DNA of 64,000 bases from Pseudomonadota bacterium (GTDB lineage Bacteria > Pseudomonadota > Gammaproteobacteria > Steroidobacterales > JBCBZW01), in NCBI GenBank assembly GCA_039193195.1, contig JBCCWS010000002.1:372001-436000 (forward strand). The letters are read 5' to 3'. Made by a program: the position numbers and the translations under genes. The notes under the pieces were generated by a model that was given only the letters and a program-made list of their open reading frames with translations, was not told the origin of the DNA and searched no databases. Positions 34,996 through 45,135 of the stretch are shown here, piece by piece. Within the stretch, counting starts at the first letter, position 1, and each line of letters starts with the position of its first letter.

Positions 34996-36168
34996 GTGTA
35001 CCGACGCCTCCTGTTCACCATCTACGCCCCTTCCTCCTGCACGTCGCTAGCGCAGGAGGGCATGCTGGTCATCGTGCCGTTGTACGTGCTAGCCCTCGGG
35101 TACTCGCCGGCCACCGCCGCCTTTGTGGCGGCAGCGCGCGGTCTGGGCATGCTGCTCGTGGATCTGCCCATCGGTCTGCTCGCCGCCCGCCATGGGGAGC
35201 GCGCCGTGATGCTCGGTGGCCTCGTCGGGCTTACCGTAGCGATGGTCGGCTTTGCCCTCGCCAACACCCCGATCGGTCTAGCTCTATCCGCGTTGCTGTC
35301 CGGCTCGGCGTTCTCCGCCTGGATGCTCGGGCGCCAGTCCTATCTCGCCGCCTCGTGCGCGAGCGCTGAGCGGGGCCGCGCGATCGCTGTGCTTGGCGGC
35401 CTGATGCGCGTGGGCGCGCTGACCGGTCCCCTGGCTGCCGGCCTGATCGCAGCTCGTCACGGGTTTCCCGCGGCTCTGCTCGTCTCCGCGGCACTGTGCG
35501 CACTGGCCGCCGTGTTCGTTGCCACTCAGGCGCGCCCCTTGGATCAAGACCGACCCGCCGCTCGGGAACCGGCTGCAGCTCGCCTAAGCAAGTTGCTCGC
35601 TGAGCACGGTGGTATCTACGCTCGGGCGGGCTTCGCCTCCATCTCCCTGCAACTGATGCGCTCCGCCCGCGCCATCCTGCTGCCGCTGATGGGCCACGCG
35701 CTTGGCTTGGAGGTGGTGACGATTACGCTCGTGGCCACCTTGGCGGCCTGCGCGGATCTCGTGCTGTTCCTACCCGCAGGGCTGGTGATGGATCGCTACG
35801 GTCGCAAGTGGTCTGCCGTGCCGTGCATGATCGGCCTTGTCTCGACCCTGGCGTTGCTTCCCTTAGTGAATAATTTCAATAGCTTAGTGGCCGTGGCGAT
35901 GGCGATGGGGTTGGCCAACGGTATGGGGTCTGGGGTCGTCTTGACCTTAGGCGCAGACCTGGCGCCGGCGCACGATAGGGCCACCTTCCTCGGCGTCTGG
36001 CGCCTGATCGGCGACACCGGCCGCGCGGGCGCCCCCTTGCTCGTGGGGACGCTGGTGGCGCATGTGGGCAGCCTTGGGCTCGCCGCGTGGGTGATCGGCG
36101 CCGTCGGGCTCGCCGGCGCCGGCGTATGGTCCTGGTTAGTGCCGGAAACCCTAGAACGCGGCACCTAG
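34996..36168 (+). CDS. MFS transporter
   Basis: This 390-residue protein has about 12 hydrophobic helices in two bundles. The cytoplasmic loop between helices 2 and 3 (DLPIGLLAARHGERAVMLGG) and its counterpart in the second half (FLPAGLVMDRYGRKWSAVP) carry the major-facilitator signature. The start is GTG 34996. It resembles sugar-efflux/drug-efflux MFS proteins, but no substrate can be named. It follows the sortase by 36 bases and could be co-transcribed. Its TAG stop overlaps the TAG of the convergent patatin gene (CTAG). Confidence 0.88.
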   Translation: MYRRLLFTIYAPSSCTSLAQEGMLVIVPLYVLALGYSPATAAFVAAARGLGMLLVDLPIGLLAARHGERAVMLGGLVGLTVAMVGFALANTPIGLALSALLSGSAFSAWMLGRQSYLAASCASAERGRAIAVLGGLMRVGALTGPLAAGLIAARHGFPAALLVSAALCALAAVFVATQARPLDQDRPAAREPAAARLSKLLAEHGGIYARAGFASISLQLMRSARAILLPLMGHALGLEVVTITLVATLAACADLVLFLPAGLVMDRYGRKWSAVPCMIGLVSTLALLPLVNNFNSLVAVAMAMGLANGMGSGVVLTLGADLAPAHDRATFLGVWRLIGDTGRAGAPLLVGTLVAHVGSLGLAAWVIGAVGLAGAGVWSWLVPETLERGT

Positions 36169-38381
36169 CGGAAGTTCCTGCCTAGGTTCAGGAAGAAGTT
36201 GTAGCGCCCCTCATCGCTGAAGCCGATGCCGAGGAAGGCAGGGCCGACAAAGGTATCGGCACCAATAAAGAAGGATAGGGCGCCAAAGTTCTCCTCGGCG
36301 TCTTGGCCGAAGGTGTCGAAGCTCACGTTGGCAAACTCGAGATCTGCGCCCAGATAGACGGGTAACGTGCCGACCTTCTCGGGGGCGTCGAGACGGCGGT
36401 AGTAGCTGATGCCAAGGAGGGCGTACTCGGTCGAGGGGATCGAGTTTGGTGAGAAGGCGCCTAGACGGCGAAAGCCACCGAGGCTAAGAATTTCGATAAC
36501 ATCATTGTCCTCAGCATCGATGGACTCCGCTCGAGCGCGAAAGTTAAGGACGTTTCGACCGAAGGGCACGGGCTTGCTCAAGCTGAAGCGGTACTTGGCG
36601 TTGACGTCGTCGTCGCGTAGATCGACCAGCTGCTGGGCAGTGAGGTTTAGCGAGATGCCCGAGCGGGGGAAGGTGGCGGAGTCGAGCGTGTCCACCGCGA
36701 AGCGGGCGCCGATGCCCGCGTTACTGAAGCCCTCCGCTGGGAACAGCTCCGGGGCAACGGTGACCTGAGGCCTGACACGCCCCTCGTTGATTAGCGCATC
36801 GAAGGAGAGCACGCCCCACAGGCCGAGCTCTCGGCCAACGCGCAGCTGCGCATTGGCGGTCTGCTGCCAGAACTCACCGAGCCTCACGTCGCCGATATCG
36901 AAGAAGATCTCCTCGGCGCGGTAGGACAAGGCCGGCAGGAAGAAGTATCGTCCTTCCGCGCCGACCGGGCGGTATAGCTCGGCGGTGACGCCGAGGTTGG
37001 TGCCGAACTCGCCGGAGACGGCGAACTCGCCGCCCTTGGGGCCAAAGGGGCGGCGTGAGATGCGGGCGAGGAGGGCGAAATTGCTGTCGCCGTCTAAGTC
37101 TGTGGCGCCGCGGGCTCCCGCCTGGATCAGGGTAGTACCGAGGGGGCGCTCGAGCGTGCGCACGACCGGAGTTAGGCCGTCGAGGGCGAGGTCGACCTCG
37201 CCGAAGCCACCGAACGAGGCGAGGTCACGCAGCTTTCGGCGAAGCGTGGCGGGCTCCCCGAGATCTTGGGGCTCGAAGGCGAGGCGGCCGCGCAGGGCAT
37301 CGTCGCTGATCTTGGTGGCGTTGCGGATCTGCACTTCAGCGAGCACCCCTTCCGGTGCTTCGCGAGGGAGGGCTTTCTCCGTCCTTGCGGCGGCGAGTTC
37401 GCGAATGCGCAGGAGTGCCTCACGATACTCTTCGGCGGCCTCACGGCCCCGCGCGTAGCCACTATCTGCGTCTGCGGGGGCGAAAGAGCTCACGCTGAGG
37501 CCCTCGAAGTCCGGCTTGATCACCACGTCCAGTTCGCTCAGTAACTCCAGCTGCTTCAGGTAGTTGTTCCAGACCGTGATGCGGTTTAGCTGCAGGTTGA
37601 TATCCGCCAGAGACACGCTGCGGTCCATCTTCGGCGGTTCGATCGTGAGGTCGATGCCGATCACGATATCCGCGCCCATGAGCAACGCAGTTTCCACCGG
37701 CAGGTTTTGGATGAGGCCGCCGTCCACGTAGACCTCGCCGTCGATGATGCGGGGCGTGAACACGGCGGGCACGGCCATGCTGGCGAGCATTGCCTCGACG
37801 AGATCGCCGCGCTCGAACACGAAGGCGGCGCCCGTGGAGAGATTTGTAGCCACCGTGCGCACTGGCACGCGAAGGTCGTCGAAGTCCGAGGCGAGGGGGA
37901 CGTGCCGGGTGAGCTCGCGGAAGTACTGCTGCATGCTGCCCATGCCGACGACGCCGCCCGGCAGGGCGAGCCCATCACTGGTAATGCCGGCGATGTACTC
38001 GGAGAAGAACTCGTCGCGGCGCTCCTTGGCGATGAAGGTGGTGTCGCGGCGAGACTGGACGTTGGCGAAGAGGGCGGGCCATGGCGCGGTGCGGAAGATC
38101 TCACGGATCTCGCCCACGTCGTAGCCAGCGGCGTAGAGGCCGGCCACCACTGCGCCCATGCTCGTGCCGACCACGCAGTGAATGGGGATCTTCAGTTCCT
38201 CGATAACGGCCATGGCGCCGATCTGTGTGTTGGCGAGGGCGCCGCCGCCGCTGAGCACGAGGGCTACCGTCGGGCCACCGCCTTCGGGCGCGCGGCAGGC
38301 CTTGGCGGCGGTGCAGGCGAGGCTGGTCAGGCCGAGGAAGCACACGAGGAGAGCGCGCCAGCGCATGGGGGCTTGGCTCAT
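36165..38381 (-). CDS. Patatin-like phospholipase with POTRA-like region and outer-membrane beta-barrel
   Basis: This 738-residue protein starts at ATG 38381 (MSQAPMRWR), with a signal or lipoprotein-like hydrophobic segment ending LTSLACTA. The patatin domain (about 35-330) has LVLSGGGALANTQIGAM (oxyanion hole), VVGTSMGAVVAGLYAAGY (GxSxG nucleophile) and VYVDGGLIQNLP (catalytic Asp in DGG). A short POTRA-like part follows, with FEPQDLGEPATLRRKLRDLASFG. A C-terminal surface-antigen barrel has alternating beta strands ending RYNFFLNLGRNFR with terminal Phe-x-aromatic residues. This is the PlpD/RssA-type autotransported phospholipase layout. The frame stays open upstream through a repeat into a dead lysE gene, giving a misleading 904-codon ORF. 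Confidence 0.9.
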   Translation of the reverse strand: MSQAPMRWRALLVCFLGLTSLACTAAKACRAPEGGGPTVALVLSGGGALANTQIGAMAVIEELKIPIHCVVGTSMGAVVAGLYAAGYDVGEIREIFRTAPWPALFANVQSRRDTTFIAKERRDEFFSEYIAGITSDGLALPGGVVGMGSMQQYFRELTRHVPLASDFDDLRVPVRTVATNLSTGAAFVFERGDLVEAMLASMAVPAVFTPRIIDGEVYVDGGLIQNLPVETALLMGADIVIGIDLTIEPPKMDRSVSLADINLQLNRITVWNNYLKQLELLSELDVVIKPDFEGLSVSSFAPADADSGYARGREAAEEYREALLRIRELAAARTEKALPREAPEGVLAEVQIRNATKISDDALRGRLAFEPQDLGEPATLRRKLRDLASFGGFGEVDLALDGLTPVVRTLERPLGTTLIQAGARGATDLDGDSNFALLARISRRPFGPKGGEFAVSGEFGTNLGVTAELYRPVGAEGRYFFLPALSYRAEEIFFDIGDVRLGEFWQQTANAQLRVGRELGLWGVLSFDALINEGRVRPQVTVAPELFPAEGFSNAGIGARFAVDTLDSATFPRSGISLNLTAQQLVDLRDDDVNAKYRFSLSKPVPFGRNVLNFRARAESIDAEDNDVIEILSLGGFRRLGAFSPNSIPSTEYALLGISYYRRLDAPEKVGTLPVYLGADLEFANVSFDTFGQDAEENFGALSFFIGADTFVGPAFLGIGFSDEGRYNFFLNLGRNFR

Positions 38382-38470
38382 AAGGTCTACGGTCGGTGGA
38401 GAAGGAGGGAGAAGCCTACCAGCCCTCGGGGGCCTGACAACCGCCGAGCGTCTCGCGAGCGCAACCTGGC

Positions 38471-38525
38471 GTGGCGTGGCGTGGCGTGGCGTGGCGTGGC
38501 GTGGCGTGGGGTGGCGTAGGGTGGC
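38471..38525. repeat. Pentanucleotide tandem repeat (GTGGC)n
   Basis: There are eleven consecutive 5-base units. The first seven (38471-38505) are perfect GTGGC, followed by GTGGG, GTGGC, GTAGG and GTGGC. The array lies 90-145 bases upstream of the patatin start, at the 3' end of the lysE remnant, and runs in an open frame between them. Such arrays change length by slipped-strand mispairing. A change of one unit would shift any frame crossing it or alter promoter spacing by five bases. Confidence 0.9.
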
Positions 38526-39138
38526 AGTGAGCACGCCCATGGTGATGAGCGCGAGGCCGCCGCCCTGGGAGAGGCGTCGCCGCGCCCCAGCACTAGTGAG
38601 TTGTTGTCGGATCAGGTCCGCCAGCACGGCGTAGGCGAGGGCATTCAGGAACGCGAGGCTGACGAAGGTGGCGATGAGCACCGCAGCCTGCCCCGCCAGG
38701 GGTGCCTGCGGCGTCATGAACTGAGGCACGAAAGCGATGCAAAAACCGATGCTTTTCGGATTGAGGGCGGTGACCAGGGCTGAGTGCCCGAGCACCTGGC
38801 AGGCGTTTACGGCGTCGGTCGAGGGCTGCTCGCAGGTGTCATCGGCGCGCGGTGCCTGTCGCCACATGCTGATCCCCAACTAGACGAGGTTAGGCGCGCC
38901 GATCCACTTCAGGGTGGCGAACGCCGTTGCGCAGGCCTGCATCAGGGCACCGAGTCCGAGCAGGGAGACGCTCATGGCAGCCAGATCGCCGAGGGCTACG
39001 CCCACGGCGCAGGCGACGGCGATACGTCGACCCTGCGAAAGGGCGTAGGTGAGCACCAGCAGCACCGTCGGTGCCCGGGATGATCAGCTGTAGCGCGGAA
39101 GCTGCGGTGAAGGCGAGCCAAAGTGTCGGATCCGACAT
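38526..39138 (-). pseudogene. Decayed LysE/RhtB-family amino-acid exporter gene
   Basis: The start ATG 39138 gives MSDPTLWLAFTAASALQLIIPG. One extra base (at about 39072) then shifts the frame: removing it restores PTVLLVLTYALSQGRRIAVACAVG and so on, the LysE signature. The restored frame runs to KWIGAPNLV, then meets TAG at 38880-38882 where the family has Trp, and continues LGISMWRQAP. The second half is ALNPKSIGFCIAFVPQFM to VLADLIRQQL, also typical. The 3' end has lost its own stop and runs into the GTGGC array. An intact gene of about 205 codons would export small amino acids such as homoserine or lysine. Confidence 0.88.
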
Positions 39139-42952: not shown

Positions 42953-43825
42953 TTAGGCGGCGGCGACCAGTTTGCCGAGCTTCTTGATCGCGGCGGCTTC
43001 GATCTGGCGGATGCGTTCCGCAGACACTCCATAGCGATCGGCGAGCTGGTGCAGGGTCGACTTGTTCTCGGTCAGCCAGCGCGACTGCACGATGTCCCGG
43101 CTGCGCTCATCGAGCGCATCCAGGCCCGCGTTCAGGCTGGCGTGGTTCGCCGCCTCCCAGTCGTCCGCCTCGAGGGCCACGGCGGGATCCTCCTCGGCAG
43201 CCGGCAGATAGGTCTGGGGCGAGTAGCCGCCGTCCTCGTCGTCCTCACCGGGCAGGGGATCGAAGGACTGGTCGCGAGCCGCGAGGCGCCGCTCCATCTC
43301 CGTCACCTCCGCCGGCGACACGCCGAGGTCTTCGGCCACGGCCTTGGTCTCGTCGGCCGAGAGCCAGCCTAGGTGCTTTTTTGCTTTTCGCAAGTTGAAG
43401 AACAACTTACGCTGGGCCTTGGTGGTCGCGACTTTGACCACGCGCCAGTTGCGCAGGACGAACTCGTGGATCTCAGCGCGGATCCAGTGCACCGCGAAGG
43501 ACACCAGGCGTACGCCCACCTCAGGGTCGAAGCGCTTCACGGCCTTCATCAGGCCCACGTTGCCTTCCTGCACCAGATCGCCGAGCGGCAGGCCGTAGCC
43601 CATGTAGCCGCGGGCGATGTGCACGACAAAGCGAAGGTGCGCGATCACCAGTGAACGTGCCGCCTCCACGTCGTTATCTTCGCGGAAACGCGCCGCCAGG
43701 GAGCGCTCCTCTTCCACCTCGAGCACGGGCACGGTCTGCACGGCGCTGATGTAAGCGTCGAGGTTACCGACGGGGCCGACGGCCAGCAGGTTGTTCTGAT
43801 TGTTGATAGTCAGGGCAGTACTCAT
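42953..43825 (-). CDS. rpoH: RNA polymerase heat-shock sigma factor (sigma-32)
   Basis: This 290-residue sigma-70 family factor directs RNA polymerase to heat-shock promoters. Region 2 is [39 protein letters not shown], with [22 protein letters not shown]. The RpoH box QRKLFFNLR identifies it among sigma factors. Region 4 is [35 protein letters not shown] at 43834-43840 lies eight bases before the ATG. It sits directly after ftsX, the usual gammaproteobacterial order, but a 191-base gap with an exact CIRCE operator gives it its own control. Confidence 0.97.
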
Positions 43826-43864
43826 GAGATCGCCCTCCTTCCAAGCATGGATGTCATTACCTCA

Positions 43865-43894
43865 AATTTAGCACTCAACCTTGGGGAGTGCTAA
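43865..43894 (-). promoter_or_regulatory. CIRCE operator (HrcA site) with overlapping rpoH promoter
   Basis: On both strands 43868-43894 reads TTAGCACTC, nine bases, GAGTGCTAA, the exact CIRCE consensus bound by the HrcA repressor. On the minus strand TTAGCA (43894-43889), 18 bases, and TAAATT (43870-43865) form a plausible sigma-70 promoter inside the operator. Transcription would start near 43858, giving a leader of about 33 bases. The operator is seen directly; the promoter is inferred. hrcA itself is not in the window. Confidence 0.9.
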
Positions 43895-44016
43895 CACCAG
43901 CGGCGTTCCTGTGACGCATTACCGTGAATAACGGTGGGGTCAGTGCCGTCGAGCTGTGACCGGGGGCGCAATCGGAGCACGCGTGTTCGCTATCACCCTA
44001 TTAGTGTACCGACCGG

Positions 44017-45135
44017 TCAATTTGGTTCCATCGATCGCAACACCCGATCGGCCGCCATCCAGGCACTGATCGCCCCAAGAAATGCCGCTCCGCTGATAAC
44101 CGCTAGGGCGGTGACCGGCCCGAGGCCCCTAAGCGTGAACGATGTGCCATAAACCTCGGCCAATCGTGCTACTGGCCCGCCCAGGGCGAGGAGCGCCAGA
44201 CCGACCAGCGAGACCGCGACGAGGCCGCCACCGAGGCCGTACCACAGGCCGCTGAACACGAAAGGCTGTCGAACGAAACTGTCGCTGGCACCGATCAGGC
44301 GCGAAATCACGATCTCTTCTCTTCGTGCGCTTACATCGCCGCGAATCGCATTCGCGATCACAAGTAGGGCCGCGATGCCGAGGAGTACCGTACTGAGCAA
44401 GCTCACTTGGCCAAGCAACGTCAGCGTGGCGCGCAGGCGCCGTAGCCAGGCGAGATCTTCCGTGACCGTATCCACCTGGCCAAGGTCATTGAGTTCGCCG
44501 ACCAGTGCTCGGATGGATGCATCGTCATCGCGACCTTCCGCCGGCACGAGCACCAGCGCGTGAGGGATTGGGTTGGTCGGCTCGCCCCGCTCATCTGTGA
44601 GTGTCTCGAGCAGCTCCGCCATACCGCTGTTCTCGCGGAACCACGCCAGCCCATCCTTAGCCGGGATTGCCACCGCCGTGGCGATTCGCGCGTCCGATCG
44701 GTATCGCACGGCCAGCTCTTGTAGGGTCGACTCGGGAAGACCGGGTGTCAGGTAGGCGGAGATCTCCGCCCGGTAGCGCCACGCCGAGGTCGCTCGCTTC
44801 GCGTTATCGGTGAGCAACTGGAGTGCGAGAGGCAAGGCAAGTGAGACGCCGATGACGGCCACCGTGAGCGCCGCCGTGGTGGGGGTACGCACCAGACGGC
44901 CGAGCGCCCCAATGAGCATCTGCGCCTGCCGCAGCCCATAGGTGCGTAGGCGAGTGATGAAGCGCTGTCCTTCGCCGTCGCGACGAGGCGGGCGTTTCTC
45001 CTCGCGCTGCGCGGCGTGCTCGCTCGCGGCTTCCCGCTCGCGTCGTGCCCGGCGCCGGCGTCGCTCGGCCGCGGCTTGACGGTCTGGGCCGGCATCGGTG
45101 CCGGCATTGCGCGAGCCTTCACGCCGAGTCGGCAT
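44017..45135 (-). CDS. ftsX: Cell-division ABC transporter permease FtsX
   Basis: This 372-residue partner of FtsE activates cell-wall hydrolases at the division septum. After a cytoplasmic N-tail, TM1 is TPTTAALTVAVIGVSLALPLALQLL. The periplasmic loop (about 115-250) includes DEALAWLRR-like text (VTEDLAWLRRLRATL). Three C-terminal helices follow with LLGIAALLVIANAIRGDVSARREEIVISRLIGAS, the FtsX family signature. The first 65 residues are unusually charged, with runs of Arg and Glu. The ATG at 45135 lies 17 bases inside the end of ftsE. Confidence 0.95.
   Translation of the reverse strand: MPTRREGSRNAGTDAGPDRQAAAERRRRRARREREAASEHAAQREEKRPPRRDGEGQRFITRLRTYGLRQAQMLIGALGRLVRTPTTAALTVAVIGVSLALPLALQLLTDNAKRATSAWRYRAEISAYLTPGLPESTLQELAVRYRSDARIATAVAIPAKDGLAWFRENSGMAELLETLTDERGEPTNPIPHALVLVPAEGRDDDASIRALVGELNDLGQVDTVTEDLAWLRRLRATLTLLGQVSLLSTVLLGIAALLVIANAIRGDVSARREEIVISRLIGASDSFVRQPFVFSGLWYGLGGGLVAVSLVGLALLALGGPVARLAEVYGTSFTLRGLGPVTALAVISGAAFLGAISAWMAADRVLRSMEPN

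Follow-up and report, generated by a model that had tools for sequence, protein, structure and literature searches.

An exact CIRCE operator before rpoH suggests that one bacterial heat-shock switch probably controls the other

Accounts of the heat-shock response usually present two alternatives, a sigma factor in E. coli or a repressor in Bacillus. In the Bacillus type, the repressor HrcA and its operator CIRCE control groESL and hrcA-grpE-dnaK. Both heat-shock systems act in one cell in Agrobacterium, where groE is under RpoH and HrcA (PMC11764788). A CIRCE operator before rpoH itself was predicted in Geobacter sulfurreducens, at position -51 (PMC545781, Table 8). In E. coli, the rpoH promoter P3 is RpoE-dependent, and the RpoE -35 box reads GGAACTT (PMC8103513).

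Here, we analysed a CIRCE operator before rpoH in a 64-kb stretch of DNA, referred to below as the window, and compared it with these systems. The operator and the repressor family are those of the Bacillus type; however, the gene targeted here encodes the sigma factor of the alternative heat-shock system, and a scan of 3.7 kb at the hrcA locus of this genome, allowing 4 mismatches, found no CIRCE. In Agrobacterium, RpoH and HrcA meet at a common target operon, whereas here one would control the gene of the other (PMC11764788). The likeness to G. sulfurreducens is closer in that the same 18 consensus arm positions, the same target rpoH, and a similar distance are found; however, that prediction concerned one delta-proteobacterium, Table 8 gives a site at rpoH for neither G. 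metallireducens nor Desulfuromonas, and the available portion of the paper makes no mention of a sigma-E promoter sharing operator bases (PMC545781). The likeness to E. coli P3 is that sigma-E drives rpoH from a GGAACTT box; E. coli, one of 14 control genomes, was not among the 7 with an HrcA match, and therefore no HrcA operator is expected at its rpoH. Apart from the Geobacter paper, no title or opening of an abstract among the literature matches listed dealt with a gammaproteobacterial CIRCE at rpoH or with an operator nested in a sigma-E promoter; the search covered few subscription papers, and neither the Permina and Gelfand survey of beta- and gamma-proteobacteria nor RegPrecise. A CIRCE before rpoH has thus already been predicted in print, and the nested sigma-E/CIRCE layout described below looks new.

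The features of the locus, all on the minus strand, are as follows.
42953..43825, minus strand: rpoH, heat-shock sigma factor sigma-32, 290 aa (TIGR02392)
43834..43840, minus strand: AAGGAGG, likely ribosome-binding site of rpoH, found by eye
43865..43870, minus strand: TAAATT, possible sigma-70-type -10 that overlaps the right end of CIRCE; the final T is conserved, and the bases past the arm score low
43868..43894, minus strand (direction of rpoH): CIRCE operator (HrcA site), a perfect 9-9-9 palindrome, found by motif scan
43905..43909, minus strand: GGAAC, sigma-E-type -35 core, placed one base nearer CIRCE than is most frequent among near relatives
44001..44029, minus strand: GGAACC...CACTAA, sigma-E-like distal match that spans the ftsX end and lies in a block identical in the congener G001
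44017..45135, minus strand: ftsX, upstream of rpoH and in the same direction, in the order ftsY-ftsE-ftsX-rpoH

The palindrome has the form TTAGCACTC-AACCTTGGG-GAGTGCTAA, i.e., TTAGCACTC-N9-GAGTGCTAA with a 9-base spacer, and its plus-strand letters are TTAGCACTCAACCTTGGGGAGTGCTAA. Its arms form a full inverted repeat and differ from the CIRCE consensus at none of the 18 positions, which bears out the exact operator reported at rpoH in the first-pass annotation; the start given there (43865) was three bases early, and the gap to the rpoH ATG, given as 43 bases, is 42. At this distance, the operator lies as close to a heat-shock gene as is expected of CIRCE. It was the sole match in the window at up to 3 mismatches, and 100 dinucleotide shuffles of the window gave a mean of 0.02 matches at the same threshold; a chance match was ruled out by these shuffles together with the reversed-motif control. 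The downstream gene matched the RpoH profile TIGR02392 with 398.2 bits (cut-off 323.1), and it was the only match to this RpoH in the whole genome at E <= 1e-60. Upstream, ftsX, ftsE, and ftsY are all co-directional with rpoH. No match to Rfam was found in 43400-44200 at E <= 1, and inspection of the sequence by eye showed no sigma-32 promoter at the operator. Elsewhere in the window, a single open frame at 36165-38879 combines part of a LysE-type translocator with a patatin-like phospholipase and is possibly a fused or frame-disturbed reading; near the junction, at 38467-38525, lies an array of 11.8 copies of the 5-base repeat TGGCG.

The rest of the genome was scanned for CIRCE over 6.71 Mb in 113 contigs (98.7% complete). 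The rpoH site was the only exact match; the next best, with 2 mismatches, precedes groES-groEL, so that the rpoH operator is nearer the consensus than the groESL operator of the same genome. A further site with 3 mismatches was taken as chance because the reversed control pattern was about as frequent (3 CIRCE matches at up to 3 mismatches, against 2 per strand for the control). The first-pass annotation had proposed a search for hrcA and for other CIRCE sites, with a lack of hrcA as grounds for rejection. The genome contains one copy of hrcA, which encodes 354 aa with no internal stop and matches TIGR00331 with 317.6 bits (cut-off 197.2); thus, that refutation fails, and the groESL operator supplies the second site. 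The sequence after hrcA resembles grpE and dnaK by eye. Since CIRCE is found at rpoH and groESL and not at the hrcA locus, the predicted HrcA targets in this genome are rpoH and groESL. The genome also encodes RpoE (TIGR02939, 306.2 bits, cut-off 236).

Conservation of the operator was assessed in up to 350 bases before rpoH at 111 loci of near relatives. These came from genomes of the same order, where RpoH was matched in 58 of 59 and 30 loci were taken, and from contigs ranked by RpoH match (the best 80 of 563), titled mostly Gammaproteobacteria or Proteobacteria. In this redundant set of best RpoH matches, CIRCE with up to 3 mismatches was found at 110 of the 111 loci; by best site, 78 loci had 0 mismatches, 24 had 1, 7 had 2, one had 3, and one had 8. 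The set includes the window locus twice (L001 and L005), four of five tested pairs across the two collections share sequence, and 99 distinct 60-base segments remain, counting the window copy. The operator is perfect, for example, in Thioalkalivibrio sp. XN8 and has 1 mismatch in Steroidobacter agaridevorans. The single locus with no CIRCE within 350 bases upstream of rpoH (L021, genome G051) belongs to a genome in which the groES operator is perfect.

In a wider sample, spread evenly over the class and comprising 184 genomes, rpoH was found in 173 and hrcA in 133. The count comprised 150 places in 148 genomes (29 loci, 120 regions, and the window); another 25 rpoH-bearing genomes, with weaker or unlisted RpoH matches, lay outside it. 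CIRCE with up to 3 mismatches preceded rpoH at 108 of the 116 places in hrcA-positive genomes vs. 5 of the 34 without detected hrcA (Fisher p about 1e-18 over the 150 places, uncorrected for relatedness). With one genome per family (G059-G198), the corresponding counts were 86 of 91 and 4 of 20. In the 150 regions, the reversed motif never had fewer than 4 mismatches. Draft genomes can miss hrcA: none was found in G072, and its genus mate G205 has the gene. The eight hrcA-positive places without CIRCE belong to G188, G119, G215, G087, G210, G236, G191, and G154. The annotation had contrasted rpoH with the normal groESL and dnaK targets; such a position is usual among the hrcA-positive genomes of the class sample (the 108 of 116 above), and, given also the published Geobacter prediction, this contrast should be revised.

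Several further arrangements were observed. Two genomes carry two rpoH copies, one with a CIRCE-like site (1 mismatch in G087, L179/L234, and a weak one with 3 mismatches in G215, L216/L219) and the other without, which makes a division of labour possible. G148, an hrcA-positive genome outside the class count, has a perfect rpoH operator (L315). In L230 (G066), two operators, one perfect and one with 1 mismatch, lie 32 bases apart before a single rpoH, and a second CIRCE-like site with 3-4 mismatches precedes rpoH in L203, L222, and L244.

Outside the class, 40 rpoH places from other classes of the phylum were compared, and CIRCE with up to 3 mismatches was found at 4 of 29 hrcA-positive places and at none of 11 without detected hrcA. 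All four sites (L340, L353, L355, and L356; 1-3 mismatches; hrcA-bearing genomes) fall within one family of another class, f172, where the operator was possibly recruited independently. At ten further out-of-class rpoH loci, eight of them hrcA-positive, the nearest match had at least 5 mismatches. The rarity of the operator outside the class therefore indicates that the class pattern is not general for hrcA-bearing members of the phylum.

The sigma-E -10 element is TCTGA or TCTAA. An ungapped alignment of 97 distinct near-relative sites (up to 2 mismatches) revealed what is kept outside the arms, namely GGAAC at -16 to -12, TAA at spacer positions 1-3, and A-A-T past the right arm. TCTAA is formed where the left arm passes into the spacer, by two arm bases and three spacer bases; it begins at 7 and GGAACTT ends at -10, which leaves a spacing of 16. 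At positions 24-29, the commonest form is TAAAAT, which resembles a sigma-70 -10. The sigma-E -10 has also been given as TCAAA (PMC4890791). As a control, we used the groES operators from 30 genomes of the order (57 have groES), all of which carry CIRCE with up to 2 mismatches. A GAAC that starts between -16 and -14 was found at 95 of 99 rpoH sites vs. 3 of 30 groES sites, AA at spacer positions 2-3 at 86 of 99 vs. 0 of 30, and T at +29 at 99 of 99 vs. 3 of 30. Because these signals are present at rpoH and mostly not at the groES operators, the rpoH operator is under extra constraints that fit a promoter; on this pattern, the operator of the near relatives appears to be built into a sigma-E-type promoter of rpoH. 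Among the 110 class-level sites outside the order, G, G, A, A, and C at -16 to -12 were each present in 55-73%, the spacer T-A-A in 68, 40, and 80%, respectively, and 90% had T at +29; the promoter signals are thus weaker at this level, with A as the second spacer base in only 40%.

The window copy departs from this layout. Its GGAAC begins at -15, shifted by one base from the most frequent position, and its spacer begins with CCC, so that TCTAA is absent; at the TCTAA spacer positions it scored -8.68, whereas the minimum outside its genus was -3.89. The bases past the right arm, ATT (in TAAATT), scored -1.92, against a 5% point of 1.59 and a minimum of -3.38 for the other sites. The congener G001 likewise has GGAAC starting at -15 and no TCTAA; between it and the window genome (G000), the arms are identical at all 18 bases, and the spacer differs at 2 of its 9. 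The stretch directly upstream of CIRCE on the minus strand (43895-43952) is identical in the two genomes and altered beyond, and it may hold a further regulatory site. In the window copy, nothing of the layout but the operator and the -35 core is well preserved, and which promoter would be blocked there is uncertain. HrcA control thus appears well supported at this copy, whereas the sigma-E nesting belongs to the relatives and is incomplete here.

Taken at the level of sequence, we consider it very probable that the palindrome is a functional CIRCE at which the HrcA of this genome binds and blocks polymerase at the rpoH promoter, that the operator is nested in a sigma-E promoter in most near relatives, and that the arrangement forms a gate with feedback by GroEL. 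The sequences show the operator, the repressor gene, the second site at groESL, the conservation and its link to hrcA, and promoter signals in the relatives; HrcA binding and repression at rpoH are inferred. The dependence of HrcA on GroEL is known in other bacteria. In Campylobacter jejuni, GroESL strengthens HrcA binding, and the title of the same paper terms this HrcA an intrinsic thermosensor; titles cited there report GroE dependence of HrcA in Bacillus and Chlamydia (PMC8533110). Therefore, both GroEL load and heat could release HrcA. According to the proposed mechanism, HrcA on CIRCE would block RNA polymerase at the rpoH promoter; in the near relatives, where the operator also covers the possible sigma-70 -10, bound HrcA would exclude both polymerases. 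Misfolded protein occupying GroEL would deprive HrcA of the GroEL needed for its activity, which would free groESL and rpoH together, and heat sensed by HrcA itself would be a possible further release route. After release, sigma-E would drive rpoH, and newly made GroEL would restore repression, so that the gate of the sigma-32 regulon would have GroEL as its negative feedback. The annotation had proposed that the HrcA and sigma-32 circuits are wired in series. The presence of hrcA, the groESL operator, and the hrcA-linked conservation support the HrcA part of this claim as a prediction; in the near relatives, sigma-E would take part as well, which makes three regulators rather than two.

The departures of the window copy leave room for a genus-specific arrangement in which CIRCE binds HrcA and is detached from the main rpoH promoter. 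The rpoH message would then originate elsewhere, for instance as read-through from ftsYEX or at the distal sigma-E-like match, and the operator would be a weak roadblock or would hardly matter. TCTAA is absent in both the window copy and G001, the distal match sits in a block unchanged between the two genomes, and a consensus scan of 43700-44300 found no sigma-70 promoter. However, the congeners keep all 18 arm bases while 2 of 9 spacer bases have changed, the rpoH operator is closer to the consensus than the groESL site, and the distal match overlaps the end of ftsX, where coding constraint may explain part of its conservation. We therefore regard a detached operator as rather unlikely. It is highly improbable that the site is a functionless leftover or is read by another regulator: a recognisable CIRCE does occur at five places without detected hrcA; however, the window genome has an intact hrcA and a perfect site, and conservation in the sample far exceeds that of the control motif.

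A role of the palindrome as RNA, i.e., as a hairpin in the rpoH 5' UTR or at the end of ftsYEX that sets stability or ends transcription, is barely credible: the perfect inverted repeat does lie between co-directional genes, and the commonest changes, at pairs 0-26 (T-G, 22 of 205 distinct sites) and 2-24 (G-T, 30 of 205), keep wobble pairing, but pair 6-20 is C opposite C in 24 of 205 sites and a swapped G-C in 1, the palindrome was not among the terminator scan results, its loss tracks the absence of hrcA, and sigma-E spacing would place the start within the right arm, leaving the RNA without the hairpin. The frequent uncompensated break of pair 6-20 fits a protein reading DNA, with the wobble changes neutral; on this break and the terminator scan, a hairpin or terminator was held unlikely.

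The preferred reading of an HrcA-gated rpoH promoter also bears on genomes that lack the repressor. At four loci without detected hrcA, L213 (G238), L169 (G124), L139 (G204), and L184 (G202), the GAACTT-type -35 is kept, and the CIRCE-like palindrome is disrupted by substitutions or by the absence of a base, which looks like decay after the loss of hrcA. A strict sigma-E-type expression matched 67 of 113 CIRCE-bearing regions (1.8 expected from shuffles), 6 of 29 without CIRCE and hrcA (0.5 expected), and 1 of 8 hrcA-positive regions without CIRCE. Since most hrcA-less regions lack the sigma-E pattern by this expression, the account of such promoters as relics rests on few cases. It may be that the HrcA-gated sigma-E promoter was the ancestral control of rpoH in the class (Gammaproteobacteria as the database draws it), that GroEL load, acting through HrcA, decides whether envelope stress activates sigma-32, and that the rpoH promoters of hrcA-less members are remnants with sigma-E boxes kept and the palindrome decayed; the chances of this being so seem to us evenly balanced.

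In conclusion, as far as can be judged from sequence, one heat-shock switch probably controls the other. If this is true, many Gammaproteobacteria would chain both systems: the repressor would gate the gene for the sigma factor, rpoH, and an envelope-stress sigma factor would drive it. This would explain the joint persistence of the two heat-shock systems. GroEL would gain influence over the entire sigma-32 regulon, and rpoH control of the E. coli type would be the state that remained after the loss of HrcA.
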